Of a DNA stretch of 47,642 nt, positions 675 to 44,612 are shown one piece after another (position 1 is the stretch's first letter; every line of letters begins with the position of its first letter). Source of the DNA: Candidatus Iainarchaeum sp. (lineage in GTDB: Archaea > Iainarchaeota > Iainarchaeia > Iainarchaeales > JAFCCW01); contig JAFCCW010000012.1 in assembly GCA_017609985.1 (NCBI GenBank), positions 1 through 47,642 of the forward strand, read 5' to 3'. A model generated the notes under the pieces. It made no database searches and was not told the DNA's origin. It worked only from the letters and a program-made list of their open reading frames with translations. A program made the position numbers and the translations under genes.

Positions 675-2945
675 ATGCAGGAAAAAAAATTTGTAAACCA
701 CTCTCTTGTCAAAAAAGACCTTGTTGAACAAAGGCTTTACCAAGAAATTCTGGCTGCGAGAATTGTTGACAAGGGAAACAGTCTTGTTGTTGCACCAACT
801 GCTCTGGGAAAAACAATTGTTGGTGTTTTGCTTTCCGCGCATCTTCTCAAATCACAGAAAGGAAACAATGGCAAGATTTTGTTCATGGCTCCAACAAAGC
901 CTCTTGCAGTTCAGCACATGAAGACTTTCAGGAATCTAATGGAAGTTGATGATGAGAGCATTCAGATTATGACTGGAACAACCAGCCCAAAGGAAAGAAA
1001 GGAAATTTGGGAACAGTCAACAATAATCTGTGCTACTCCACAGACAATTGAAAACGATTTGATTACTGGAAGAATTACGATGGAGGATGTTTTGCTCTCT
1101 GTTTTTGATGAAGCGCACAGAGCAGTGGGAGACTATGCCTATGTTTTCATTGCAAGGCAGTATATGAGCAAGGGATTGAATCCATTGATTGTTGGTCTTA
1201 CAGCTTCTCCTGGAAGCGAACAGGAAAGAATTCAGGATGTCTGCAAAAACCTGTTCATTAAAAACATTGAAATAAAGTCTGAAGAAGACGAGGATGTAAA
1301 GCCATACACTAACGAGATAGATGTGCAGTGGACTGGAGTTATTTTGCCAAGCGAGTTTACAGAGATTGGAAACGAGTTAGCAAAGTTTATGCAAAAACAA
1401 GCAGAGGTCTTGAGAAAAATAAGAATTGTCAAAAAAGCTAATGCTCGTTCGATTTCAAAAAGAGAAATTCTTGCAATGCAACAGGAAATCAGAAAAAAGA
1501 TTGCTGTGTCCGGGGGAAGCCAACCAGCTCTTTATGTTGCTGCTTCAAAGGCAGCAGGGCTTCTCAAAGCAAACCATGCTCTGCTTTTGCTGGAAACTCA
1601 GGGAATTCCTCCGCTAAAAGAATATCTTGAAAAAATTGAGAAAGAGGGAACAAGGGGAGCGAGTTCAAAAGCAGTCAAGGCAATGTCAAAGGATGAAAAT
1701 TTTTTGAAGGCTTTGAGGCTAACAAGAATACTGGACAGAAAAAATATAATTCACCCGAAGCTTGATGAATTAAAAAAAGTGTTAAGCAGTCAGGTTAAGG
1801 AAAACAAGGAAAGCAGAATTCTTGTCTTCAATCATTACAGGGATTCAGTGAAAAGAGTTACTGAAGAATTGAACAAATGTGAGGGAATCAGAGCAGAGCA
1901 ATTCATTGGACAGGCTGCAAAAGTTTCAGGCAAGGGAATGAGCCAAAAAGAACAAATTGCCCGTGTAAAAGAATTTGAAGAAGGAAAGTTTAACGTGCTT
2001 GTCGCAAGCAGTGTTGCAGAAGAAGGACTTGATATTCCGGCAGTAGATCTTGTTGTATTCTACGAGCCGGTTCCAAGCGAGATTAGAACAATTCAGAGAA
2101 GGGGAAGAACGGGAAGAAAAGAAAAAGGAAAAGCATTGATTCTCATGGCAAGGGGAACGAGGGACGAGGCATTTTACTGGGCAGCAAAGGGAAAGGAAAA
2201 GCGAATGAAGAACACACTTAGAGAGATGAAGGGAGGAAAAAGGAAGCTTGATAATCAAACAACACTCTTCAAGTTTGACGAAAAAGAAGAAGAAGAGATT
2301 TTGATTTATGTGGATTCAAGAGAACAGGCAAGCACTGTTTCAAAAGAGCTGAAGAGAAAAGGATGCTTTATTAAAACAAAAATGCTAGAGGTGAGTGACT
2401 ATATTCTTTCAGACAAGGTTGCAGTGGAGAGAAAAACTGTTGAAGACTTTCTCTCAAGCCTTGTTGACGGAAGGCTATTCAACCAGCTCGCATATCTTGC
2501 AGAAAATTTTGAAAAACCACTTGTTGTTCTTGAAGGAAACCCAAGCGAACTATTTACTCTGAGAAATATTCACAAGAACGCAATACTGGGAGCAATGTCA
2601 TCTATTGCACTGAACTATCGGGTGCCAGTTTTGTTCACAGCAGACGGAAGGGAAACAGCAGAGCTTTTGTACGTGATTGCAAAAAGAGAACAACAGGGAA
2701 GCGACAGAGAGATTTCGTTAAGAGTTGGCAAGAAAGGATTAACTATTGAAGAACAACAGCAGTTTCTTGTGGAAAGCATTCCAATGGTTGGACCAAATCT
2801 GGCAAAATCTCTTTTGAAGCATTTCAAAAGCATTAAGGCAATAGCAAACGCAGACCAGAAAGAGTTAAAGGAAGTTGAAAAGTTAGGGAAGAAAAAAGCA
2901 GAAAAAATAAAGAAGCTATTCAATGCAGAATACAAGGAAAAGTGA
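675..2945 (+). CDS. hef: Hef-type helicase / XPF-family nuclease
   Basis: A 756-residue fusion of an SF2 helicase and an XPF/MUS81 nuclease, the archaeal Hef architecture used on stalled forks and branched DNA. Visible helicase motifs are PTALGKT near residue 41, DEAH near 145, LTASPGS near 176 and QRRGRTGR near 474. The nuclease core is YVDSRE followed by VERKTVEDF near 584, the ERKxxxD signature. A helix-hairpin-helix region (SIPMVGPNLAKSLLKHF) closes the protein. Walker A has Ala where Gly is usual. The ATG lies about 27 bases after a TTTAAA box, suggesting a leaderless start. Length is normal for full euryarchaeal-type Hef. Confidence 0.95.
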   Translation: MQEKKFVNHSLVKKDLVEQRLYQEILAARIVDKGNSLVVAPTALGKTIVGVLLSAHLLKSQKGNNGKILFMAPTKPLAVQHMKTFRNLMEVDDESIQIMTGTTSPKERKEIWEQSTIICATPQTIENDLITGRITMEDVLLSVFDEAHRAVGDYAYVFIARQYMSKGLNPLIVGLTASPGSEQERIQDVCKNLFIKNIEIKSEEDEDVKPYTNEIDVQWTGVILPSEFTEIGNELAKFMQKQAEVLRKIRIVKKANARSISKREILAMQQEIRKKIAVSGGSQPALYVAASKAAGLLKANHALLLLETQGIPPLKEYLEKIEKEGTRGASSKAVKAMSKDENFLKALRLTRILDRKNIIHPKLDELKKVLSSQVKENKESRILVFNHYRDSVKRVTEELNKCEGIRAEQFIGQAAKVSGKGMSQKEQIARVKEFEEGKFNVLVASSVAEEGLDIPAVDLVVFYEPVPSEIRTIQRRGRTGRKEKGKALILMARGTRDEAFYWAAKGKEKRMKNTLREMKGGKRKLDNQTTLFKFDEKEEEEILIYVDSREQASTVSKELKRKGCFIKTKMLEVSDYILSDKVAVERKTVEDFLSSLVDGRLFNQLAYLAENFEKPLVVLEGNPSELFTLRNIHKNAILGAMSSIALNYRVPVLFTADGRETAELLYVIAKREQQGSDREISLRVGKKGLTIEEQQQFLVESIPMVGPNLAKSLLKHFKSIKAIANADQKELKEVEKLGKKKAEKIKKLFNAEYKEK

Positions 2946-2998
2946 ATTGAAGAAAAAGAAAAGTAAATTGCATGCAGTGATTGCAGAACAAAGAAAAA

Positions 2999-4402
2999 TT
3001 AGTTATAGAAAAACAGTTTTGCTGAGTCAGAGGAATAAATATTGTGAACAAAAGAACAGTCTGCTTCAAGCAAACCATTTTTCACGGTTTCAGAAAAAAG
3101 CCATTTTTTTCCTGCAAAAGAATGTGTCAAGCCCCACCTATTCACAATCTCTGAAATTTTTTCACAATCAGATGACTGAAACAGGGTTTTAGAGTCAGCA
3201 TTTCTTTCTTCAAGCTGGGGAGCAAATTCAAAATAGCCGTCGACCAAAACCTGTCTTGAAGAAAAATAAGTTATTGGGTGGCCATAATCCCAGATGCTTG
3301 CGACAACCGAGCTCGGCAGAGAATTGTCGCCAAGCCAGGATAAAGCAGAACGGTCAGAAGAAGAAGTAAATTTGTTAAAAGAAGTCAGAGTAAAAACAAG
3401 CGAAGAAACAGCGAGCAGAAAAATAAGCATGTAAAAAAACTTTTTTCTTGAAACAGTTTTTGAAGAAGTAAATGAAAGACCCCTGCCAGCAACAATTGCT
3501 GCCGGAAGAGAAAAGAAAAGCAACAAGCGAGTACTGAACAAACCATAGATAAAAGAAAAACCAAACCAGAATTTCAAGAAATATTTTTTTGGAACAAATT
3601 TCAAACCAAGCAGAATAAAAATCCAGGAAAAAAGCAGTAACCTAATCATTGACAGAATCGAAGGAGAAGACATTTCACTTGATTCAAGGGATGTGGAAGA
3701 AAGATAACTTTCAATTGGAAGAGAAAACCAAGCAAGCCAACCGACAAAGAGCAGAAAGGGGATAAAGATAATTGGAAAAATTTGAGTAATCCATTTTCCT
3801 GTTTTGAATCTTTGAAAAACAATCCAGCCAACAAGAAATAAGTAGAGGTACATTGCAGAGAGCGGGTGCAATAAAACCTGTGCAGAGGAAAGAATAGTTG
3901 CCGAAAAATATTTTTTTCTAAAAACAAGGAAGAGAACTGCAGGAACAATGAGAAGAGAGAGGCTGTCAGGTCTTGCATAGGAAGCAGTTCTTGCAATATG
4001 AAGCCCCATTAGTGCAAGAGAAAAAGCAGAGAACAAAGCAGTTTTTTCTCCAAAGAGTCTCTTAGCAAAGCAATAGACAATCAGAACAGTCATCGTGCCG
4101 TATAGTGCAGGCAATAGCATTGCAAGCAAGTCAATTGGAATCGCAGTAAAAAGGAAAAGAAAAGCAAACAGTATATGGAATTCCGGAGCATAACTGTATT
4201 GCCTGCCCTGCATTGAAAGAGAGTCAAAATCAGGAATTGAGAATTCTGAGACAACTAGTTCAGACATGCGAATATGAAAGAGCGGATCAGGACCCTTAAA
4301 AGAATCAATCGCAAGAGGCGCTATCCTGATGGAAAAAGCAAGCAAGAGAATAAGAACAAGCATAAGAGTTTTTTTGGAAACAGAAAAATTAGAGAGAAAC
4401 AA
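2999..4402 (-). CDS. STT3/AglB-like GT-C membrane glycosyltransferase
   Basis: An integral membrane protein with many hydrophobic segments and the GT-C signatures of oligosaccharyltransferase: GPDPLFHIRMSELV near the N terminus, QYSYAPEFH, ARPDSLSL, and a C-terminal IWDYGHPITYFSSRQVLVDG that matches the STT3 WWDYG region with Ile for the first Trp. It would transfer lipid-linked glycan to exported proteins. At about 470 residues it is shorter than classic AglB (800-950), with a reduced C-terminal domain. The ORF is open from 4441 with only TTG starts before ATG 4363; the TTG near 4402 has GGAG upstream and couples to the cgi121 stop at 4389. The start is therefore uncertain. Confidence 0.75.
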   Translation of the reverse strand: MFLSNFSVSKKTLMLVLILLLAFSIRIAPLAIDSFKGPDPLFHIRMSELVVSEFSIPDFDSLSMQGRQYSYAPEFHILFAFLFLFTAIPIDLLAMLLPALYGTMTVLIVYCFAKRLFGEKTALFSAFSLALMGLHIARTASYARPDSLSLLIVPAVLFLVFRKKYFSATILSSAQVLLHPLSAMYLYLFLVGWIVFQRFKTGKWITQIFPIIFIPFLLFVGWLAWFSLPIESYLSSTSLESSEMSSPSILSMIRLLLFSWIFILLGLKFVPKKYFLKFWFGFSFIYGLFSTRLLLFFSLPAAIVAGRGLSFTSSKTVSRKKFFYMLIFLLAVSSLVFTLTSFNKFTSSSDRSALSWLGDNSLPSSVVASIWDYGHPITYFSSRQVLVDGYFEFAPQLEERNADSKTLFQSSDCEKISEIVNRWGLTHSFAGKKWLFSETVKNGLLEADCSFVHNIYSSDSAKLFFYN

Positions 4403-4937
4403 GCGCAACCCGCTCCAAGACAGCTTTCTCCAAAGCAACAAATTTTTCAGAATTTAATGCAGAAAGTTCGTTGTCGGAAATATCAAAAAATTTCTGAATC
4501 TTTTTGAAATTCTTTTGAAGAGCTTTTTCAAAAAGAGCTTGCTGTTCACAAAAAGAAAACTCTTCCTTCAAGAAATCAAGAGCAGAGGAAATCTCTTCGA
4601 CAGAATCACAATAGATTACTACAGCTACATTGTTTTCTCCGTTCACTAAACTGGCGCTGGAAATAGCATTTCCAATCTGTTTTGTTCCAAGCAACCTTGA
4701 CAAAAACTCAAGCGAAAGATTTGAAGAAAAATTTTCCCCTGATTCAAACGCAGACAGTGACTGGCTGAGAGCAAACTGAAGTTGAGTCTCAGAAACCACC
4801 AGAGAGAGAGGAACAAGCTGAATAAAGGAAGGAGGAGAAAAAAAACACAAAGCTTTTTTAATGCTTGTATCCACATTACTAACATCTACATTGCCTGTTT
4901 TTATGGAAACAAGTCTTTTATCGATGTGTTTTTTCAT
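4389..4937 (-). CDS. KEOPS subunit Cgi121-like protein
   Basis: The C-terminal two thirds fits the Cgi121/CGI-121 family: LLGTKQIGNAISSA is the characteristic RQI-x-x-AI helix, and the protein ends LERVALVSL like other Cgi121 proteins. The family is an accessory subunit of the KEOPS complex that makes t6A37 in tRNA and helps bind tRNA. The open frame extends to 5165 but that part overlaps rps8e antisense. ATG 4937 is favoured because a TTAAAAAA box lies about 27 bases upstream; ATG 4961 is the alternative. The 3' end overlaps the STT3-like gene. Confidence 0.7.
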   Translation of the reverse strand: MKKHIDKRLVSIKTGNVDVSNVDTSIKKALCFFSPPSFIQLVPLSLVVSETQLQFALSQSLSAFESGENFSSNLSLEFLSRLLGTKQIGNAISSASLVNGENNVAVVIYCDSVEEISSALDFLKEEFSFCEQQALFEKALQKNFKKIQKFFDISDNELSALNSEKFVALEKAVLERVALVSL

Positions 4938-4979
4938 AAAACAATTTGGCAAGAAAACCATTAAAAAATCGGTGTTTGA

Positions 4980-5390
4980 ATGACTCAATGGCATGAAAGA
5001 ACTGAACGAAAAATAAGCGGCGGAATACGCTATGCAAAAAACCGCTGTACAAAAAAGAAGGCTTGGATGGGCAGAGACTTTACTGCTACAAAATTGGCTG
5101 AAGAAAACGATGAAGGAAAGTCCACAATAACCAAGGGAAGAGGGCACAGTCAGAAAACCAAGCAAAAAACAGCAAAATTTGCAAACGTAACTGATAAAAA
5201 GTCAGGAAAAACATCAAAAGCGGAGATTTTGGAAGTAATTGAAAACGAAGCAGACCGACATTTTGTTAGACGAAATATTGTAACCAGGGGAGCAGTAATT
5301 GCAATAGAGGTTGACGGCAAACAGAAAAAAGCAAGAGTTATGTCACGGCCAGGGCAAAGCGGGCTTCCAGAAGCTATTCTTATAGAATAA
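4980..5390 (+). CDS. rps8e: Ribosomal protein S8e
   Basis: A 136-residue small-subunit protein shared by archaea and eukaryotes. The start MTQWHERTERKISGG and the C-terminal FVRRNIVTRGAVIAIEV plus VMSRPGQSGLPEAIL are the family signatures. It has normal archaeal length and ends in the usual LPEA segment. It is divergent from cgi121 with a spacer of only about 40 bases. A terminator-like hairpin follows at 5412-5439. Confidence 0.97.
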   Translation: MTQWHERTERKISGGIRYAKNRCTKKKAWMGRDFTATKLAEENDEGKSTITKGRGHSQKTKQKTAKFANVTDKKSGKTSKAEILEVIENEADRHFVRRNIVTRGAVIAIEVDGKQKKARVMSRPGQSGLPEAILIE

Positions 5391-5411
5391 GGCTTGTATT
5401 GCTTGAATTCT

Positions 5412-5439
5412 GGTTTTTAGCTATTTTTTATAAAAAACC
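5412..5439 (+). terminator. Possible terminator after rps8e
   Basis: GGTTTTT (5412-5418) can pair with AAAAACC (5433-5439), and the inner TTTTTTATAAAAAA is itself a palindrome. The U-rich stretch 22 bases after the rps8e stop fits an archaeal oligo-U terminator. The same segment could also act as an upstream promoter element, so the call is modest. Confidence 0.35.
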
Positions 5440-5452
5440 CAAGCATACGAAA

Positions 5453-5573
5453 GATTTATAAATGATGGGTGCTGCAATTCATATAGAATACTTATTTCTT
5501 GGACATCTTAAAAAAAGTGACACAATCGTGGCTTTTGAGCCAAGAATCTAAAAAACTTGTTGTAGGTGATTGA
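5453..5573 (+). promoter_or_regulatory. tfb promoter and structured leader with a 28-codon uORF
   Basis: A TATA-like ATTTATAAAT at about 5452-5461 would start a leader of some 85 bases, unusual in a window rich in leaderless genes. Two mutually exclusive hairpins are possible: TTCTTGG (5496-5502) with CCAAGAA (5540-5546), or TGGCT (5529-5533) with AGCCA (5538-5542); they compete for the same CCA. A short open frame runs from ATG 5465 to TAA 5551. The ribosome-binding site AGGTGAT lies four bases before the tfb ATG. Regulation by this leader is inference. Confidence 0.35.
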
Positions 5574-6482
5574 ATGTCTGAAGGAAAATGCCCAGAGTGT
5601 GGAAGCAAAAAGATAAAAAAAGACAATGAGAGAGGAGAACTTGTTTGCGAATCTTGCGGACTTATTATTGACGCAGATGACATAGACCTGGGAAAAGAAT
5701 GGAGATCATTTGACAGCGACCAGTTTGAAAAAAGAGCAAGAACCGGAAGCCCAATGAAGTATGTCAAGCTAAACAAGGGTCTTGTGACCATGATTGACAG
5801 ACGCGGAACAGACATGAGAGGAAACAAGCTGAGCTCAAAAAGCAGAGCACAGATGTACAGACTTATTAAATGGCATAAAAGAGCAAGCATTAGTTCAAGC
5901 ATGCAGAGAAATCTAAGCATTGCACTAACTGAACTGAGAAGAGTTGCAAGCTATTTGAACATCCCTGAAAGCCTGGTTGAAGCAGCAGCATTGCTTTACA
6001 GAAAAACAGTTAAAAAAGGGCTAATTAGAGGAAGACTTATTGAAGCAGTTGTTGCAGCCGTGCTTTACACAGTGTGCAGAACATACCATGTTCCAAGAAC
6101 ACTGAACGAGATGGCTGAAGCAAGCGGTCTCACCAAAAAAGAAATTGGAAGAACCTACAGATTCCTTGTGAGGGAATTAAACATTGAGGTTCCTTTGACA
6201 AATCCAATCCATTATATTCCAAGATTTGCAAGTGAGCTGAATCTGAGCGGAGAAGTCCAGGAAAAGGGAAGAGAAATTGTTGAAGAAGCAATCGAAGAAG
6301 GACTAATCTCAGGAAGAGGGCCAACCGGCGTGGCAGCAGCAGCTGTGTACATTGCTGGATTGCTCAAGGGCGAGAGAAGAACTCAGAAAGAAGTTGCAAA
6401 TGTTGCTGGAGTGACTGAAGTCACAATCAGGAACAGGTATCGCGAGCTCAAGAAAGAGCTTGGAATTGATGTGGCAGCCTAG
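5574..6482 (+). CDS. tfb: Transcription initiation factor B
   Basis: A complete 302-residue TFB. An N-terminal zinc ribbon carries CPECG and CESCG pairs (residues 7-28), followed by the B-finger/linker (KEWRSF and later [12 protein letters not shown]) and two cyclin repeats of about 90 residues each; [16 protein letters not shown] marks the second, and the protein ends in a helix-turn-helix ([20 protein letters not shown]). It recruits RNA polymerase to TBP-TATA complexes. It is preceded by a strong AGGTGAT site. Confidence 0.97.
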
Positions 6483-6559
6483 CGGCTACTTCGCTGGTTA
6501 AAGCCATCAACTTTCTATTTTTATTTAGTTCTACAGGCTTCGTCTTCTTATAGAGAAGA

Positions 6560-7213
6560 ATGATTATCGCTGGAGTTGACGAAGCAGGAAGAGGGCCAGT
6601 TCTTGGACCCATGGTTTTGGGAGTTGCAGTTATTGAAAAAAGAAATGAAGAAATTTTGAAAGAAATCGGAGCAAAGGACTCCAAGCTTATTCCCTATGAC
6701 AAAAGAGGAATGCTTTGCGAAAAAATCAAAGAACAGCTTATAGAATTCAAAACATCGCATGTTTTAACAGAGGAACTAAACGAGTTAATGAAAAGAAAAA
6801 GCTTGAATGAAATTGAAGCAATGAGAATAGGAGAAACATTGAATGCTTTAGAGAACAAGCCGGAAATGGTTTTTGTTGACTGCCCTGACGCAACAGAGAA
6901 AAGTTTTGTGAGAAGGCTTCGAAAGTATCTGTCCTTCAATCCAAAAATAAGATCAGAGCACAAAGCAGACTACAAGTATCCTGTTGTTTCAGCAGCATCA
7001 ATTATTGCAAAGGTTGAAAGAGACGAGGCAATCGAAGAAATGAAAAAAGAGTTCGGGGAAATAGGCTCAGGATACTCGCACGACGAGGTCACGATTAGTT
7101 TTTTAAAGAAATGGATTGATAAGAATAAATCCCTGCCAAGGATTGCAAGAACTGAATGGGAAACAAGCAGGAGAATGCTAGGAGACTGCTTTCAAAAAAA
7201 GCTAGGTGAATAA
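6560..7213 (+). CDS. rnhB: Ribonuclease HII
   Basis: A 217-residue RNase HII, which cuts RNA in RNA-DNA hybrids and starts removal of misincorporated ribonucleotides. The first catalytic motif GVDEAGRGPVLGP is at residues 5-17, the DSK motif near residue 40, FVDCPD near 93, and SAASIIAKVERDE in the C-terminal half. A TATA-like TTTTTATTTA at about 6524-6533 fits a leaderless or near-leaderless start. The stop lies one base before the Hsp20 ATG, so the two are probably co-transcribed. Confidence 0.96.
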   Translation: MIIAGVDEAGRGPVLGPMVLGVAVIEKRNEEILKEIGAKDSKLIPYDKRGMLCEKIKEQLIEFKTSHVLTEELNELMKRKSLNEIEAMRIGETLNALENKPEMVFVDCPDATEKSFVRRLRKYLSFNPKIRSEHKADYKYPVVSAASIIAKVERDEAIEEMKKEFGEIGSGYSHDEVTISFLKKWIDKNKSLPRIARTEWETSRRMLGDCFQKKLGE

Positions 7214-35972: not shown

Positions 35973-38321
35973 ATGGCAATTAACATTATGCTGCCTGAAA
36001 TGAATACTGACAGCGAATCAACAAAGAATCTCATCATAAACATTTTAAGCAAGGAATGGCCCTTGTCGGCAAAAAAGGTGCATTATAGGATAAAGAAGAT
36101 TTATGCGATTAACTGCACTTACCAAGCAATACACAAGCAGCTAAGGTTATTAACAAAGAGAAAAGTGCTGGAAAAAGACGGAAAAAATTATCGACTTAGT
36201 ATAGAGTGGTTGGACGCACTCAAAAATTTTAGCGATGAAATTAAGAAAGATTATAACAAGTGTGGTGTAGCCAAGAAAAAGCCAGAGGCTGAAGAAAAGG
36301 CTGATTTGAAATATTTTAAAAAGTACAGGCAAAGCATAGCATCCCTGCTTAGGACAAGGGTTAGAGGCTTTCCAAAGCTGGATTGTGTCAGAACAGAGCT
36401 TGGTGAATCAGGCCAGCGAATTGAGGTTGGCAAATCGGGTTCTGCAGTAAAACAAGTTCTCAAAACAGGCGGAACCTCGCTTTTGCTGGGGCCTTCGGGC
36501 GCGGGAAAAACAACCACTTTAACCCAGATAGGGCTCAAGGCATGCGACTCAAGCAAGATACCAGTATTATTCAATTTGGCGAATTTCAATGAATGTGACT
36601 TGGATGAAATAATCCAGCAAAAAATCTTTGAGGTGTCGGGAGAGCGAATAAGCACTGGTTTTATCGACGAGAACCTCAAAAAAGGGGCTTTTGTTTTTCT
36701 GTTTGACGGCTTGAATGAGATAACTGGCGAACTATATGCTGAAAAGCGTGCTCTTGACAAAGCGGAGTTTATAATAAACCAGATAAATCACTTCGGCTCC
36801 AACAAAAACTATTCAAAAAACCAGTTTGTAATCGCTTGCAGGACAAACGCGGACCCTAAATCAAGTTTATCTGCCACCACATTCATGCTTTGCCCATTCA
36901 CAGAAAACCAGATTAAAAAATACCTCCTTAAGAGAGGCTTAAAAAATTTGTTTGAGCAAATAGCCCAAGACAACAAAATATTCGAGCTCTGCAAAAACCC
37001 GTTAATACTGGATATGACAGTGAATATTTATAATTCCAGCAAAAACCTGTTCCATAACAAAACAAAAATGTACCAAGAGTATTTCACCAACACAATATAT
37101 GGCTGGGAATCAAAAAATATCAAAAAACTGGAACTAATCGCACTAGACTTGGAAGAAGCACTGTCAAAACTGGCTTTTCAGACAATAACCAAAGGAACCC
37201 ATATCTCGATAGAAGAATTCCTTAAGACAATGAGAAAAAACTGCAAACAAATGGGGTTGGATAAGGAAATCGAAAACAAAATCGTTGACGCCGCAATCAG
37301 AAGTAACATAATTCAGCTGGAAGGCACAAAATGCTACTTTCGGCACCACAGCTTCCAAGAATTTTTTGCAGCAAAAGAATTATTCAGCCTTTTCAATGAC
37401 GGCCAAAAGATTAACAAAAGAACAATAGGAGGCATCGCTGGAAAGAAACCGTTCCTAGAACCATTAAAGTTTCTTTCCGGACTGTTGGAGGATTCGACAG
37501 AGCTTGTAAACCTTCTCTCGGGGCACAACCGATTTGTTGCTGGAGAGTGCATTATAACCGCGAAATCAATAGATAAAAAAACCTTCGAAATGAACGTGAA
37601 GAAACTAATTAAAACCGTTGGCGAGAGAAATTTGACAAATGTTTGGTATGCTGTGGATATAATTAACCGCATTGGCTCAAAAGCAACTGCGTTAGTCATG
37701 CAAGAAATAGAAAAAGGAACCGATCCAGACCTGAAAAGAAGAATGTACTGGGTTGCGGGAGGGATATCTGACCCAGGGCTTAACGAATTTTTAGTTAATA
37801 GAGTGATGAAAGAAACGGACGAACATAATATTGTCCACTTTCTATTAGGGTTGCAGGAAAGCTCTTCAAAAGAGCGGGCGTTTATAGCTGAATCCTTTTT
37901 AGGGCACCAAAACCCTGTTGTTGGCGGCGATGCATTCATTGCCTTAAAAAACCATGAACAGGTTAACCAACGGTTATTAAAAAAACACGGTTTTGATTTA
38001 GATAAATTACAGCAGAAACTGGTTTCAAATTTAGATGCAACCGAGTTTTGGGAAAGAATGCATTCAATTTTGGTTTTAGGGAAACTAAAACACGGTGAAG
38101 TTGTCGAAAAGCTGGTTGGATTGCTTGATGACAAAGATACTTCAATTCAATGGTATGCTACATTGGCGTTGTGCCAAATAGGGGACAAAAATACTCTGGA
38201 CTTGCTGCAAAAGGCTTTGGAAACCCAAAGCAAGAACAAAGTTGTTTACCAAAAAGCACTGGAGGCGGTTCAAGGTGGGGTTACAGACAGAAAGGATCTG
38301 GCAAAAATATGGAGTTTCTAA
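35973..38321 (+). CDS. NACHT-type STAND NTPase with N-terminal winged helix and C-terminal HEAT repeats
   Basis: A 782-residue protein. Residues 15-75 form a winged helix (WPLSAKKVHYRIKKIY, TYQAIHKQLRLLTKRKVLEK). Walker A is LLLGPSGAGKTTTLTQIG near 171 and Walker B is VFLFDGLNEITGE near 240, with the Asp-Gly-Leu-Asn-Glu form typical of NACHT. RHHSFQEFFAAKELF near 455 is the conserved end of the NACHT helical region. The last 220 residues are HEAT-like (LVGLLDDKDTSIQWYATLAL). Bacterial proteins of this class are antiviral; a defence role here is inferred from domain plan and context. A winged helix in place of a toxic effector is unusual. Confidence 0.82.
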   Translation: MAINIMLPEMNTDSESTKNLIINILSKEWPLSAKKVHYRIKKIYAINCTYQAIHKQLRLLTKRKVLEKDGKNYRLSIEWLDALKNFSDEIKKDYNKCGVAKKKPEAEEKADLKYFKKYRQSIASLLRTRVRGFPKLDCVRTELGESGQRIEVGKSGSAVKQVLKTGGTSLLLGPSGAGKTTTLTQIGLKACDSSKIPVLFNLANFNECDLDEIIQQKIFEVSGERISTGFIDENLKKGAFVFLFDGLNEITGELYAEKRALDKAEFIINQINHFGSNKNYSKNQFVIACRTNADPKSSLSATTFMLCPFTENQIKKYLLKRGLKNLFEQIAQDNKIFELCKNPLILDMTVNIYNSSKNLFHNKTKMYQEYFTNTIYGWESKNIKKLELIALDLEEALSKLAFQTITKGTHISIEEFLKTMRKNCKQMGLDKEIENKIVDAAIRSNIIQLEGTKCYFRHHSFQEFFAAKELFSLFNDGQKINKRTIGGIAGKKPFLEPLKFLSGLLEDSTELVNLLSGHNRFVAGECIITAKSIDKKTFEMNVKKLIKTVGERNLTNVWYAVDIINRIGSKATALVMQEIEKGTDPDLKRRMYWVAGGISDPGLNEFLVNRVMKETDEHNIVHFLLGLQESSSKERAFIAESFLGHQNPVVGGDAFIALKNHEQVNQRLLKKHGFDLDKLQQKLVSNLDATEFWERMHSILVLGKLKHGEVVEKLVGLLDDKDTSIQWYATLALCQIGDKNTLDLLQKALETQSKNKVVYQKALEAVQGGVTDRKDLAKIWSF

Positions 38322-38761: not shown

Positions 38762-39547
38762 TCAGATGTTGATTGTTGAGATTTTATATCTTTCTTTGAT
38801 TTCTTCTGCGGATTTTGTTTCTTTTCCATTTACAAATAAATATTGTAAAGATAGTTTGTGAAAATTTGGTTTGTGGATTCCTTGTTTAGTTGATTCATTA
38901 GTAACAAACAGCAGAGCACGCTGGTTTTTGCTTAGATATTCCCATCTTTTTTTCATTTTGCCTAAATTGCCCATTGGAGTGTGTGCTGGGTTTAGGAAAA
39001 TGTTGGTATTTTTCAAAATTGAGTCAAATTTTTTATTTAATTCTGTTTCACTGCTTCTAAGTGAAACCCTGTTTCCTTGTTTCTGTTTGTTCTTTAGAAT
39101 ATTGTTTTCTCCGCAAATAATTAGGCGGACTTTTTTGTTGTTGACTTTGAAAAATCGCTCCGATTCAAGTTTGTCTAAATATTCTGGAATTGTTGTTTTG
39201 AGAGAGTGAATATCTTTACTGCTTGTGAAAACCTGTTTTATTTTCTTTTTAATTAGTTTTTTTCCTTTTGCCACATAGAATCCGACATCTGACTTAGGAT
39301 TATCTTTGTTTCTGTGTCCGTCTCCCACTTCAAAGATATATGTTGTGTGTTTATTTTTGTTGTTTGTTAAAACAGAATCAAGTTCTTTTCTGTTGGACAG
39401 AGTCCATCCAGAAAATAAGATTAAATCCACATCAAATACATTGTTCAATATTTCTGTCATAAGCCGCGTGTTATTTTTAGAAATGAAATTAGTTTTGGAT
39501 TTTTTGGAACTAGATTTTGTGATAAATGATACAACAGAACATTTCAT
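38762..39547 (-). CDS. Unknown island protein, possible nitrilase-like fold
   Basis: A 261-residue protein I cannot assign firmly. VDLILFSGWTLSNRKEL, VRLIICGENNIL and NIFLNPAHTPMGNLGKMKKR, then ALLFVTNES, follow the order of carbon-nitrogen hydrolase strands (a Cys after a beta strand, then an LNP segment), but the Glu-Lys-Cys triad is not clearly complete. The TAA of the upstream nuclease gene directly abuts this ATG, so they are one transcription unit. It could be an enzymatic or scaffold partner of the nuclease. Confidence 0.5.
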   Translation of the reverse strand: MKCSVVSFITKSSSKKSKTNFISKNNTRLMTEILNNVFDVDLILFSGWTLSNRKELDSVLTNNKNKHTTYIFEVGDGHRNKDNPKSDVGFYVAKGKKLIKKKIKQVFTSSKDIHSLKTTIPEYLDKLESERFFKVNNKKVRLIICGENNILKNKQKQGNRVSLRSSETELNKKFDSILKNTNIFLNPAHTPMGNLGKMKKRWEYLSKNQRALLFVTNESTKQGIHKPNFHKLSLQYLFVNGKETKSAEEIKERYKISTINI

Positions 39548-40114
39548 TTAGTTTTCCCCCAGCAAGTTTTTGAATTTTTCAACATCCTCGGTTTTTTTTT
39601 GATCTAATTCACACCAGACATAATCTTTGGCAAATAATCGCACAGTAGGTTTTAAGCCCAAGAGAGCCGGCGCAAAATCTTTGAGAGTATCATACCAGGC
39701 TCTTTGTTCATCTCTAAAGGGAGGATCATTGTCTTTTTTATGAATTGATTTGCATAAACTAAGCCATTTTTCTTTATCAAATCCCAGTTTTAAGTGTTCA
39801 GGATATGCATTTAATGCAATATCTCTTTGTTTAGTAAAATGCTGTGATTCATCAAATTCCACTATGAGCTTGTGCTCAACAGCAAAAAAGTCAACTGTAG
39901 AAAGTTTTTTAGCGCGAACAAAATTGTCATACTCCCGATTAGTTTCAAGCAAATCAAAGATTTTTTTTAAATCTGAATAAAATTTGTTGGATTCAAAAGC
40001 ACTTATTTTTGCGGGCAAATTAAGGGAATGTTCTTTCTTAACTTCGCCAAAAATAACACTGAGCAAATCGTATATTCTCTTTTTGCATTCCTTGCATCTT
40101 TCACTATGGCTCAT
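39548..40114 (-). CDS. PD-(D/E)XK-like nuclease with an N-terminal Cys motif
   Basis: A 188-residue protein. STVDFFAVEHKLIVEFDESQ followed by HF has the spacing of PD-(D/E)XK enzymes (Asp, about ten residues, hydrophobic strand with E-x-D, then QH), as in DUF559/Vsr-like nucleases. The N terminus has a CKECKKRIYDLL pair that may bind zinc or form a dimer site. The remainder is helical. It is followed without a gap by the 261-residue protein and preceded by the CARF regulator on the same strand. Confidence 0.65.
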   Translation of the reverse strand: MSHSERCKECKKRIYDLLSVIFGEVKKEHSLNLPAKISAFESNKFYSDLKKIFDLLETNREYDNFVRAKKLSTVDFFAVEHKLIVEFDESQHFTKQRDIALNAYPEHLKLGFDKEKWLSLCKSIHKKDNDPPFRDEQRAWYDTLKDFAPALLGLKPTVRLFAKDYVWCELDQKKTEDVEKFKNLLGEN

Positions 40115-40207
40115 TTGCGACTCCGACCTTGTTTTTATTTAATGTTTCTTCTTATTTTTTCCAACTAATTTCAAATCCGCCTTTTTCATGCTTTTTCCCG
40201 TGTGTTT

Positions 40208-40810
40208 TTACAATCTGGCTATTCTTCCCGCATCGGTCAGTAGCAGCTCGTTTTCCTTGTTTTCTTCTATCAGGCCCCTCACCCTTAATTCTTTTATGTG
40301 CCTGTACAACATTGCTCTGCTTATCTTTAGGTGTTCTGCGAACTTGCTGAGGTTTTTGCTTTCTTCAATGTTTTTAAGGATTTTAAGCTGGCTTTTGTTT
40401 AAATTAAATGATAGAACAGGCAGGTCAAGAATTTGATTTGTTTCTTCAATACAATATAATGCTTTTTTCACCCGATTGGAACGCGCGTATGAACCCAGAA
40501 GCAAACCCATTGATTGAGTTTTTCTGCCAGGGGTAACGTTCAAGTATAGTTCATCTTTATCTGGAATGTCATCAATTAAGATTACACATTCCTTTGCAAT
40601 GCCAACAACATCGTAGAGCCCTACTCTTTTTCGCTTTACTTTAATGGCTTTTCCAAAGCTTGCTTCAATTGTTTTTGCTGCTTTTTTCTGGGTTTTGTCG
40701 GGTTTTTTATCCATAAGCAGGTAAAGTCTTTCAATGCCAAGCTTTGTTACAAGTAGCACGATGGAATTTGTAGAATATGTTGTTGTTATTAGAACGCGGG
40801 GCAAATCCAA
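40208..40810 (-). CDS. CARF-domain winged-helix regulator (Csa3-like)
   Basis: A 200-residue protein. Residues 1-130 look like a CARF domain: the first strand and loop VLITTTYSTNSIVLLVTKLG, and later LYLNVTPGRKTQSMGLLLGS, the second ligand loop. Residues 135-200 form a winged helix (NLSKFAEHLKISRAMLYRHI). The Csa3 family senses cyclic oligoadenylate made by type III CRISPR systems. No CRISPR array or cas gene is in this window, so the ligand source must be elsewhere or different. The start is TTG with GGAGG upstream. Confidence 0.75.
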   Translation of the reverse strand: MDLPRVLITTTYSTNSIVLLVTKLGIERLYLLMDKKPDKTQKKAAKTIEASFGKAIKVKRKRVGLYDVVGIAKECVILIDDIPDKDELYLNVTPGRKTQSMGLLLGSYARSNRVKKALYCIEETNQILDLPVLSFNLNKSQLKILKNIEESKNLSKFAEHLKISRAMLYRHIKELRVRGLIEENKENELLLTDAGRIARL

Positions 40811-40917: not shown

Positions 40918-40937
40918 TGTATCGTTTTTATGATACA
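40918..40937. promoter_or_regulatory. Perfect inverted repeat upstream of the AAA ATPase gene
   Basis: TGTATC (40918-40923) and GATACA (40932-40937) form a perfect dyad with an eight-base spacer. It directly abuts the TATA box of the AAA gene and lies about 110 bases from the CARF gene start, in the spacer the two divergent genes share. It is a good operator candidate for the CARF-HTH protein or another island regulator. Confidence 0.5.
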
Positions 40938-40948: not shown

Positions 40949-40969
40949 TTTGTGACAACGGTTTTAGGT

Positions 40970-42118
40970 ATGGATGAAACTGCTTTGACCTTGAGGAACG
41001 TGACAAAAACAAACAAGTTTTGTGAAGTCAAATCTGTTGAGCAACTTATTGGGCTCGCGGGATCGTGTTATGAGTTAGAAGCGAGCATAGCTCTGCTCAA
41101 GAGTAATGGCGAGTTTGAAAAGTGGTTGAAAACAAACAAATTGCATGAATTGGCTAATAACCTTAAGCCGTTTAAGAATCAACCACTGCCTGTTTTTGTT
41201 GAAGCACTTAAGGTTTTTTTGGGTGACCATGGCGGGAAACAGGTTTCGTTTGATTCTCTTACAGGAATTGATGAACTAAAACGCTTTCTGGTAAACCGGT
41301 TTGTAAAACCTAGGCAGTTTAGGGAAAAAGCAAGAGAATTAAGGCAAGAGGTTGAAGATGGTATCATGTTTTATGGCCCGCCAGGTTGTGGAAAGACTAT
41401 GGTAGGATTAGCTCTTGCGAATGAATCGAATAGTTTGCTCATATACCGTTCTGCTGCCGACTTGGAAAAAACACGGTGCAATGCAACCGAAATGCTGCAC
41501 GGTCTTTTCACAATAGCAAGAAAGTCAGCACCTTCAATCCTGTTTTTTGATGAATTTGAATACTTTGGTCAGATGAGAAGCAATGATTCAAGACTTTCGA
41601 TGGCAACTTCGCTGTTTTTGTCTGAGATGGGTGGAAACAAAAAAAACGAGGAAATTCTCGTCATAGGAGCAACCAACTATCCCTGGAGTATTGACCCAGC
41701 ATTACTCAGAACTGGACGATTCAGCCACCTGTTTTATATGGGCCCACCTAATCAAAACCAGCGCAAAGAATTGTTTAAATTTTATTTGAATGACTTACCA
41801 TGCGAAAAGATTGATTTGAATTATTGTGTAAACAATACAAATTTTTATTCCTGCAGCGATATTTCCCAATTGTGCAGGGACGCTGCTTCTTTTGTATGGA
41901 ATGATTTCCTGCAAAATAGTGTTGAGAGAAAAATTGGAACAGAAGACTTGAAGAAAGCTATTAAACGCAGGCCTTCCTCCATAGTCCACTGGTTTGACTT
42001 GTTTAAGGCACATTCGCCCACCACAGAACAACAAATCAGATTTAAAAAGCTTTTTGATGATTTGGAAGACTATAAACTTTTGAGCAATGACACGAAGAAA
42101 AACAGCAACATTTATTAA
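40970..42118 (+). CDS. Cdc48/FtsH-like AAA ATPase
   Basis: A 382-residue single AAA module. SLTGIDELKRFLVNRFVKPR leads into Walker A MFYGPPGCGKTMVGLALANE, Walker B SILFFDEFEYFG, sensor 1 VIGATNYPWSIDPALL and the RTGRFSHLF arginine-finger segment. The first 90 residues are a helical domain with no recognised family (LAGSCYELEASIALLKSNGE). No protease domain is present. In the island it could be a remodelling partner of a defence effector. It is divergent from the CARF operon. Confidence 0.82.
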   Translation: MDETALTLRNVTKTNKFCEVKSVEQLIGLAGSCYELEASIALLKSNGEFEKWLKTNKLHELANNLKPFKNQPLPVFVEALKVFLGDHGGKQVSFDSLTGIDELKRFLVNRFVKPRQFREKARELRQEVEDGIMFYGPPGCGKTMVGLALANESNSLLIYRSAADLEKTRCNATEMLHGLFTIARKSAPSILFFDEFEYFGQMRSNDSRLSMATSLFLSEMGGNKKNEEILVIGATNYPWSIDPALLRTGRFSHLFYMGPPNQNQRKELFKFYLNDLPCEKIDLNYCVNNTNFYSCSDISQLCRDAASFVWNDFLQNSVERKIGTEDLKKAIKRRPSSIVHWFDLFKAHSPTTEQQIRFKKLFDDLEDYKLLSNDTKKNSNIY

Positions 42119-43199: not shown

Positions 43200-43820
43200 A
43201 TGGTTAAAACTAAAACTAAGAAACTTCTCGCATTACTATTGGATGCAGATTATGTTCCTAAAAGCAAGTATGCTTTAGCCAAAAAAGCCGGATGTAGCCC
43301 TACTTGGGTACTAAAATATTTTAAGCTTCTCGAAAACAAAAAAATTGTTAAAGAGATTAAAGTAAAAAATGCTAAGGCCCTATTTGAATTGTTCCATGAG
43401 AAAAGACCCAAGAAACAAATTTACAAAACCTATTCGATAAATGATTCTTCAAAACTAATCGAATCAGTCAAAAGCAGTGGAATGGATTATGCATTCACAA
43501 CCTATGTTGCAGAGAATATCCTGCAAAAACATTTGTTTTTGCACAGAACCGACATCTATGTAAAGAAAGAAAATTTTGAAGCTTGGCATGAAAAGATGAG
43601 CAAAATAGGATTATGTGGAGGCGGAAACGTTAGATTAATCATTTCTGAATACGAAGAGCTTTTTAACAAAAAGCAAGTTAACAGTGAGAATAAAAAATAT
43701 AAAAGTTGGATAGTAAACACGCCTCAGCTGATATCAGACTTGTTTGTAGAAGACGGTCCTGCAAAAGAAGCAGGAGAAATGCTGTTGAAAAAACTTGGGA
43801 AAAAAATAGAGGCAAAATAA
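43200..43820 (+). CDS. AbiEi-type antitoxin / winged-helix protein
   Basis: A 206-residue protein. An N-terminal winged helix (KSKYALAKKAGCSPTWVLKY, FKLLENKKIVKEIKVKNAK) precedes a C-terminal domain with DYAFTTYVAENILQKHLFLH and RLIISEYEELF, resembling AbiEi/COG5340-like antitoxins. It is followed immediately by a nucleotidyltransferase-like toxin gene with no gap. AbiE systems are type IV: the antitoxin represses the operon and counters the toxin without direct binding. The match is by pattern and order. Confidence 0.65.
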   Translation: MVKTKTKKLLALLLDADYVPKSKYALAKKAGCSPTWVLKYFKLLENKKIVKEIKVKNAKALFELFHEKRPKKQIYKTYSINDSSKLIESVKSSGMDYAFTTYVAENILQKHLFLHRTDIYVKKENFEAWHEKMSKIGLCGGGNVRLIISEYEELFNKKQVNSENKKYKSWIVNTPQLISDLFVEDGPAKEAGEMLLKKLGKKIEAK

Positions 43821-44612
43821 ATGTATCTTAAAATAGAGACTCAAACATCCTACGAGTATCTCCAAAAAGTCGTTTCTGTTTTGCAGGAACCTATTTGCAT
43901 TTTGGGTGGCTGGGCAGTTTACCTCACAGTAAACGACAACTATAAAAAAAATGTTGGGAAAGAATATTTAGGTTCAAGAGATATTGATTTAGGGTTTCAT
44001 TTGGACAAAAATGCCAGCGAGAAAGAAATGAAACAATCAAGTTTTTACCTTGCTTTGAAGACATTAGAAAAAGACGGCTTTGAGTTAACTTCTTTCAGAC
44101 TTGTCAAACATCTTGACCGAGAAACAGGCAAAGTCCTGTCCCAAGAAGAATATGTAAAAAAAGATCAATTTGATTTAATAGAAATGTATGTTGATCTCAT
44201 AGTAGACAACCTTCCAAACGGGTTCAAGAAAACTTTCAAAATGAACCTAATAGACGAAACATTATTAGCACCTGTTTTTGAAAATCCAAAAAACCACATC
44301 ACCTTAACCGAATTCAAGAAAAAACTTATCCTCCCAAAACCAAGCTTGCTATTAGCCACAAAACTCAAGTCCCTGCCTGGAAGAGACAAAGAACACAAAA
44401 GACAAAAAGACATCTACGACATAGCCGCACTATTACTGTACGCTCCAAAAAGAATAGATGGAAGCGAATTGAAACAGTTCCTGCCCACAAAATCATTAAA
44501 ATCCATCAAACAAATAAACGACAAAGAAATAGAAAAAACAGAATCCAGCCTAGGTCTACAAAAAAATCAATTCAAAACAGCAGTACTTGCACTCAAAAAA
44601 GAAATTGAATAA
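43821..44612 (+). CDS. AbiEii-like nucleotidyltransferase toxin
   Basis: A 263-residue protein. ICILGGWAVYLTVNDNYKKN followed by GSRDIDLGFHLDKN is the GG-x-A/V and D-x-D motif of minimal nucleotidyltransferases. A third acidic residue is likely in DLIEMYVDLIVD. LLATKLKSLPGRDKEHKRQK followed by DIYDIAALL is the AbiEii/DUF1814-type C-terminal motif (K-x-x-D-x-x-D). MenT and AbiEii relatives add nucleotides to tRNA acceptors. It starts directly after the antitoxin stop. Confidence 0.75.
   Translation: MYLKIETQTSYEYLQKVVSVLQEPICILGGWAVYLTVNDNYKKNVGKEYLGSRDIDLGFHLDKNASEKEMKQSSFYLALKTLEKDGFELTSFRLVKHLDRETGKVLSQEEYVKKDQFDLIEMYVDLIVDNLPNGFKKTFKMNLIDETLLAPVFENPKNHITLTEFKKKLILPKPSLLLATKLKSLPGRDKEHKRQKDIYDIAALLLYAPKRIDGSELKQFLPTKSLKSIKQINDKEIEKTESSLGLQKNQFKTAVLALKKEIE

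Follow-up and report, generated by a model that had tools for sequence, protein, structure and literature searches.

ScoMcrA is a type IV, modification-dependent restriction enzyme (PDB 5zmm) in which a head domain is followed by other domains and an HNH nuclease in a single chain. No function has been assigned to this head, which comprises residues 4–98 (PMC6224610). Nitrilase domains in defence have been described in DRT1 and in a UG5 reverse transcriptase (PMC9122126, PMC7699616), and it has been shown that DRT1 defence requires its nitrilase domain (PMC7699616, PMC13275509). A 2026 structural study of DRT1 describes nitrilases as uncommon in defence and lacking precedent there, with a substrate that is not known (PMC13275509). 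Csa3 regulators are associated with CRISPR-Cas systems that make cyclic oligoadenylate, and their binding of cA4 has been described (PMC8699464, PMC8844856); in a 2014 survey, only 9 of 145 CARF-bearing genomes lacked both cas1 and cas10 (PMC4012209). In CoCoNuT operons, a CARF gene of the RtcR-like type stands at the 5' end, and signal-induced restriction has been proposed (PMC11090510).

The locus described here consists of genes for a Csa3-like CARF-HTH protein, a DUF7255 nuclease and a predicted nitrilase-fold partner; in relatives elsewhere, the domains of the last two are often joined in one chain. Its likeness to ScoMcrA is limited to the head of these fused relatives, which likewise stands before further domains and a nuclease of the same protein. 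The window pair has no such head, the nuclease is of the DUF7255 (Vsr/DUF559-like) and not the HNH type, and the fused relatives have a nitrilase-fold domain instead of any Pfam sulfur-binding or SRA match. In antiviral defence, DRT type 1 and UG5 likewise couple a nucleic-acid enzyme to a nitrilase-fold domain (PMC9122126, PMC13275509). DRT1 is marked by a UG1 reverse transcriptase fused to the nitrilase, but no reverse transcriptase domain was found in any locus protein scanned, PADLOC gave no DRT1 match, and the catalytic Glu of nitrilases is missing here. The regulator resembles Csa3 in its CARF and winged-HTH composition and its above-cut-off match to TIGR01884, yet the CRISPR-Cas association is not seen, neither cas1 nor cas10 having been found in the 86.6% complete genome. 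Its relatives in the phylum adjoin GmrSD-helicase, NucS-type or csm genes, only one (L088) being beside csm. As in CoCoNuT, a CARF regulator gene lies ahead of restriction genes; in contrast to CoCoNuT, the window protein has no sigma54 ATPase domain, the effectors differ and the host is an archaeon. DUF559/Vsr-like nucleases share the ExD..H motif with the window nuclease, which passes the DUF7255 cut-off; unlike the DUF7255 members of Poribacteria, which stand alone, it is paired. No named system matching the pair was found in Pfam, NCBIfam, PHROGs, PADLOC or the literature searched, in agreement with the original prediction, and that literature held neither a nuclease-nitrilase system nor a published function for DUF7255.

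Gene order and genomic setting

The window, that is, the whole stretch of 47,642 nucleotides that was analysed, is one entire contig of a 1.16 Mb archaeal-type genome that is 86.6% complete. The three genes follow one another on the minus strand, as originally read from the sequence (Table 1), and the ATG of the 261-residue gene (39547) directly abuts the TAA stop of the nuclease gene (39548–39550). Between the end of the CARF gene and the start of the nuclease gene lie 93 nt, and a TATA-like box within this gap represents a possible separate, leaderless promoter for the nuclease and its partner. Because of the gap and this box, a single transcript across all three genes is not given by the sequence. 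An inverted repeat between the CARF gene and a divergent AAA gene may be an operator, and in this AT-rich region it may also have arisen by chance; upstream of the CARF genes compared, the search for a common operator found only AT-rich palindromes.

Table 1. Coordinates of the three genes, of putative promoter elements and of related operons
Feature	Position	Strand	Remarks
CARF-winged-HTH regulator (Csa3-like), 200 aa	40208..40810	-	TTG start
DUF7255 restriction-type nuclease, 188 aa	39548..40114	-	begins MSHSERCKECKK..., CKECK start
Nitrilase-fold-like partner protein, 261 aa	38762..39547	-	no family match
TATA-like box TTAAATAAAA	40133..40142	-	19-28 nt 5' of nuclease ATG; read from sequence
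TGTATC-N8-GATACA inverted repeat	40918..40937	-	between divergent CARF and AAA genes; read from sequence
L085 CARF-HTH/GmrSD_N/UvrD-PD-(D/E)XK operon	1837-6830
L086 CARF-HTH/GmrSD_N/UvrD-PD-(D/E)XK operon	1198-6178

The GC content of the nuclease and partner genes is 0.31–0.34, against 0.38 for both the contig and the CARF gene. A NACHT-HEAT protein, an IetA-like AAA ATPase and a NucS protein surround the trio. The reported absence of cas genes nearby was confirmed among the window genes scanned, and it extends to Cas1 and to Cas10, the cyclic-oligoadenylate synthase, in the whole 86.6% complete genome bin; positive controls were matched in both whole-genome searches.

The nuclease and its probable nitrilase-fold partner

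The 188-residue protein matches Pfam PF23913 (DUF7255) with 29.1 bits, above the gathering score of 27 (E 9.3e-7), while a DUF559 match (E 0.0012) falls just below the cut-off. Its candidate active site, D75...E86-x-D88...H92, follows the D...ExD...H motif of Vsr/DUF559-like nucleases. Identity to most fused relatives is 45–52%, with ExDExQHFT and R..QRA..D invariant, and Cys 7, 10, 121 and 168 are common to the window protein and most of these relatives. Across 26 nuclease sequences, ExDExQHFT, C118, R131, R135-A136, D139 and D143 (domain numbering) do not vary. An HMM search of the PDB with the nuclease family gave no significant match. In the AF2 model of the fused relative L072 (28 sequences, pLDDT 84.9), the nuclease domain reads by eye as mixed alpha/beta, and Foldseek returned weak matches to viral models named 'restriction endonuclease' (prob 0.85–0.93, E 0.05–0.18). 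On these observations, a PD-(D/E)XK fold is likely, not proven; the protein itself reads as a nuclease of restriction-endonuclease type.

Direct searches of plasmids, viral contigs and the home phylum with both window proteins found only the proteins themselves. The first relatives came from a profile scan of genome contigs, based on a two-row alignment whose artificial second row was later dropped, and the nuclease relatives found in this way were confirmed by tblastn with the window nuclease alone. They belonged to WOR-3 (L005), Syntrophoarchaeum (L006) and Poribacteria (L007). In the profile survey, DUF7255 nucleases were present in 15/394 genomes of Halobacteriota, the phylum of L006, in 4/147 of WOR-3, and in 1 of 80–87 genomes of the window's own phylum. 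Poribacteria carry the nuclease as a lone gene in 65/85 genomes, and this widespread solitary occurrence suggests a non-defence role for that branch, where DUF7255 (L007, L029–L057) does not appear to be a defence gene. Viral contigs yielded no relatives, and plasmids only the head domain. One such plasmid is pTBMP1 of Thermococcus barophilus (L008), where a ScoMcrA-type head forms part of another uncharacterised protein (4007–5257), encoded near a gene for type I restriction.

Outside Poribacteria, nuclease and nitrilase-fold domains occupy a single gene at 13 of 19 loci, in archaea and in WOR-3 bacteria; since L072 and L073 are identical, these correspond to 12 independent fusions. The C-terminal domain follows the nuclease in the same frame and carries the motifs VILFPGG, GRKF, CYD and LVH, or variants of them in L005 and L074. 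In the usual order, a ScoMcrA-like head precedes the nuclease and the nitrilase-fold domain, and this head matches residues 4–98 of ScoMcrA (PDB 5zmm) with E 1.2e-4. Two of the other non-poribacterial loci are truncated; in the remaining four, the C-terminus is missing or of another kind. Two of the 13 fusions are damaged: the L058 gene is interrupted by a transposase gene, and the L066 frame is broken. Also at L058 (8265–10980), a partial 3' end of the fusion is repeated in inverted orientation beside a second transposase copy. In L068 (7759–9795), L069 and L070, DUF7255 nucleases carry a different C-terminal domain of no assigned family, with the head present in L068 and L070.

The nitrilase-like domain also occurs apart from the nuclease: L108 joins it to the head, L109 and L110 encode it as a stand-alone protein, and L111 bears another C-terminal extension. 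The pairing is therefore frequent, not obligatory. Because the same domains are fused at most non-poribacterial loci, the 188- and 261-residue proteins are very likely functional partners; this link is well supported, as are the domain assignments.

The neighbours of the L005 fusion are a DNA methylase (N6/N4), an MvaI/BcnI endonuclease and a helicase that bears a TOTE-conflict domain, but most archaeal fusions sit among housekeeping genes, outside clear defence islands. In the neighbourhoods, read by eye, no fused locus had a CARF gene beside it. ORFs of GIY-YIG appearance, also judged by eye, lie near the nitrilase-like loci L005 (4334–5107), L108 (5439–6320) and L111 (8753–9547).

The fold of the partner is most clearly seen in the fused form. 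With the L072 model, the best 50 PDB matches listed by Foldseek all belong to the nitrilase superfamily (best E 2.0e-10, prob 1.00), and the fused domain is thus modelled as an alpha-beta-beta-alpha nitrilase fold. A PDB sequence search with the nitrilase-like family gave no significant match. The window protein had been described as an unknown, enzyme-like protein; the first part stands, as Pfam, NCBIfam, PHROGs, PADLOC and PDB sequences held no match to it, while it can now be read as a divergent nitrilase fold because the relatives of its neighbouring nuclease carry such a domain in the same chain. Pairwise hhalign of the single sequence against these relatives was not significant. A family HMM built from 14 relatives, with the window protein excluded, scored 18.6 bits on it, co-linear over residues 15–224, compared with 10.4 bits for the best of 1870 scored shuffles and 15.6 bits, in two weak pieces, for the next unrelated ORF. 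Neither of two HMMs, each built from one subgroup of the family, gave a significant score, and the link by sequence is therefore a modest one. For the window protein itself, AF2 produced a model of low confidence (pLDDT 52.5), for which the best 22 Foldseek matches in the PDB are all of the nitrilase superfamily (best E 4e-4); this match is partly circular, since the alignment behind the model contained the relatives, and is supporting, not independent. In sum of sequence and model, the 261-residue protein probably adopts a nitrilase fold.

The active site of the family departs from that of ordinary nitrilases. Lys, Cys, an Asp after the Cys, one His and one Trp are invariant in 14/14 relatives, while the position of the catalytic Glu (FPE in ordinary nitrilases) reads FPG, FPA or an equivalent Gly in all 14. 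Of the Glu-Lys-Cys triad, Lys and Cys are thus kept and Glu is replaced by Gly or Ala. In the window protein, the Glu position is Ser/Gly (LILFSGWTL), and the family residues K104, C145, E147, D175 and H182 are retained; the Lys is near its expected place, the Cys is followed two residues later by a Glu (RLIICGENN), and the sequence LNPAHTP is present. The domain may be a Cys enzyme with a rewired site, or else may oligomerise and bind a ligand.

The CARF-HTH gene in its phylum

The identification of a CARF-winged-helix regulator holds firmly: NCBIfam TIGR01884 (Csa3) matches with E 1.1e-20 (73.9 bits, cut-off 60.2), and PADLOC CARF3 matches the protein over its full length (1.6e-60). Relatives with 44–58% identity are present in five other genomes of the phylum. 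In L085 and L086, the order is CARF, GmrSD_N and a UvrD/PD-(D/E)XK helicase, all co-directional and either overlapping or separated by a few bases; this recurring operon is a possible CARF-controlled type IV restriction system. In L087, the CARF gene is followed by a NucS_C protein and two genes of no assigned family. In L088, it is divergent from type III-A csm genes (Cas10 with HD, Csm1_B and palm domains, plus RAMP), and in L089 it lies near a gene that looks by eye like a DNA methylase. None of these five genomes contains a DUF7255 nuclease above the cut-off.

CARF-HTH genes in this phylum thus repeatedly adjoin, and mostly lie just ahead of, varied restriction or CRISPR genes. This recurrence beside differing defence genes makes regulation of the window pair by the CARF protein plausible. 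At the same time, since the relatives are never found beside the pair elsewhere, the pair is not a fixed partner and the CARF gene appears to be a separable, modular element. The proposal of a new three-gene defence module is therefore retained for the nuclease and its partner, fused at 13/19 loci, but not for the CARF gene as a constant member, as it has other neighbours in all five genomes.

A proposed restriction-like effector and its alternatives

The best reading of the locus, with a probability of roughly one half, is a restriction-like nuclease-nitrilase effector under a modular CARF regulator. The window pair would be the split form of an effector that its relatives encode as one chain, often behind a ScoMcrA-type head. 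A PD-(D/E)XK nuclease of the Vsr/DUF559 type would act together with the Glu-less nitrilase-fold protein, with which it would form a complex in trans. In the most likely mechanism, the nitrilase-fold part would oligomerise and bind a ligand, either a small molecule or a nucleotide or base of unusual chemistry; in its ligand-bound state it would license the nuclease to cut invading DNA. The Csa3-like protein, on binding an infection signal, either a cyclic oligonucleotide or another cyclic-phosphate nucleotide, would raise expression of the pair. Since the fused relatives resemble a virus-restricting enzyme, the pair may be taken for an undescribed DNA-cutting defence, not a chance neighbourhood, and an antiviral role is slightly favoured. 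The fusions, the match of their head to ScoMcrA, the modelled nitrilase fold, the L005 neighbourhood, the CARF relatives beside defence genes, the need of DRT1 for a nitrilase domain, the sporadic distribution and the low GC of the pair (0.31–0.34 vs 0.38) are consistent with this reading; the housekeeping surroundings of most archaeal fusions, the nitrilase-like domains without nuclease, the low-confidence, partly circular model of the window partner, the lack of a PDB sequence match for the nuclease, the CARF relatives with other neighbours and the solitary DUF7255 genes of Poribacteria argue against it.

Several of these latter observations would fit a module for DNA repair or genome maintenance, in which the nuclease nicks damaged or mismatched DNA in the manner of Vsr. 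Lone DUF7255 genes are common in Poribacteria beside metabolic genes, many archaeal fusions lie among housekeeping genes, and DNA-repair genes of Sulfolobus are regulated by Csa3 proteins (PMC8699464). Such a role is nevertheless unlikely given the sporadic presence in Halobacteriota, WOR-3 and the window's phylum, the occurrence in both archaea and bacteria, the broken copies, one of them interrupted by a transposase, and a head that derives from a type IV restriction enzyme. The division of labour within the pair could also be reversed, the nitrilase-like part acting as a Cys enzyme on a metabolite, which it either destroys or produces, and thereby causing abortive infection, with the nuclease recognising or processing DNA. 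The invariance of Cys, Lys, the Asp after Cys and His in 14/14 relatives would suit an enzyme, as would the stand-alone nitrilase-like proteins and the case of DRT1, whose defence needs nitrilase activity (PMC13275509) and for which a metabolite role has been proposed. Since no relative has the triad Glu, Gly or Ala standing in its place, and the nuclease motif is equally invariant, this arrangement also seems improbable. Two small abutting genes might further indicate a nuclease toxin neutralised by its 261-residue partner. However, the homologous domains share one chain in most relatives, where an antitoxin is not expected to be a permanent part of its toxin, and the partner conserves Cys, Lys and His as an enzyme or sensor would; a toxin-antitoxin pair was therefore set aside as very unlikely.

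The role of the regulator is a separate matter. Control of the pair by the CARF protein is a real possibility, at somewhat below even odds, and much the same chance attaches to the CARF gene being an unrelated neighbour of a pair that has its own promoter. An unrelated neighbour would account for the TATA-like box within the 93-nt gap, for the genome-typical GC of the CARF gene beside a low-GC pair, for the lack of co-occurrence elsewhere and for the failure to find cas10 in the genome. Against this, the CARF relatives in L085, L086 and L087 stand immediately ahead of defence genes read in the same direction, separated from them by a small gap or none, an arrangement like the one here.

If the reading of a restriction-like effector is correct, the pair would represent a second defence-like architecture built on a nitrilase fold and unrelated to the first; linked to a nuclease and devoid of the catalytic Glu, the fold would here be reused as a sensor or rewired enzyme. 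With exchangeable CARF-HTH genes before different restriction-type operons, control of archaeal defence by cyclic nucleotides would reach further than CRISPR. More tentatively, and with odds well short of even, the loci could form an undescribed class of defence effectors in archaea and bacteria, in which a Vsr-like nuclease is coupled to a rewired nitrilase-fold sensor (Cys-Lys-His, no Glu), either fused with a type IV restriction head or split; in this phylum, it would be pluggable behind an exchangeable CARF-HTH protein, and a second messenger would then turn restriction on with no CRISPR locus involved. The single-gene fusions are directly testable in E. coli.

Other genes of the window, all on the plus strand, may also be of interest. 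A 782-residue protein (35973–38321) combines an N-terminal winged helix, a NACHT/STAND ATPase and C-terminal HEAT repeats; it weakly matches the antiphage protein EruA and is possibly a separate, NLR-like defence gene. The AAA ATPase divergent from the CARF gene (40952–42118) matches PADLOC IetA (1.7e-22), and no protease partner was noticed nearby. Further along, two adjoining low-GC genes (43200–44612) encode proteins of 206 residues, with a weak HTH match, and of 263 residues, with no match, and resemble a toxin-antitoxin or acquired pair.
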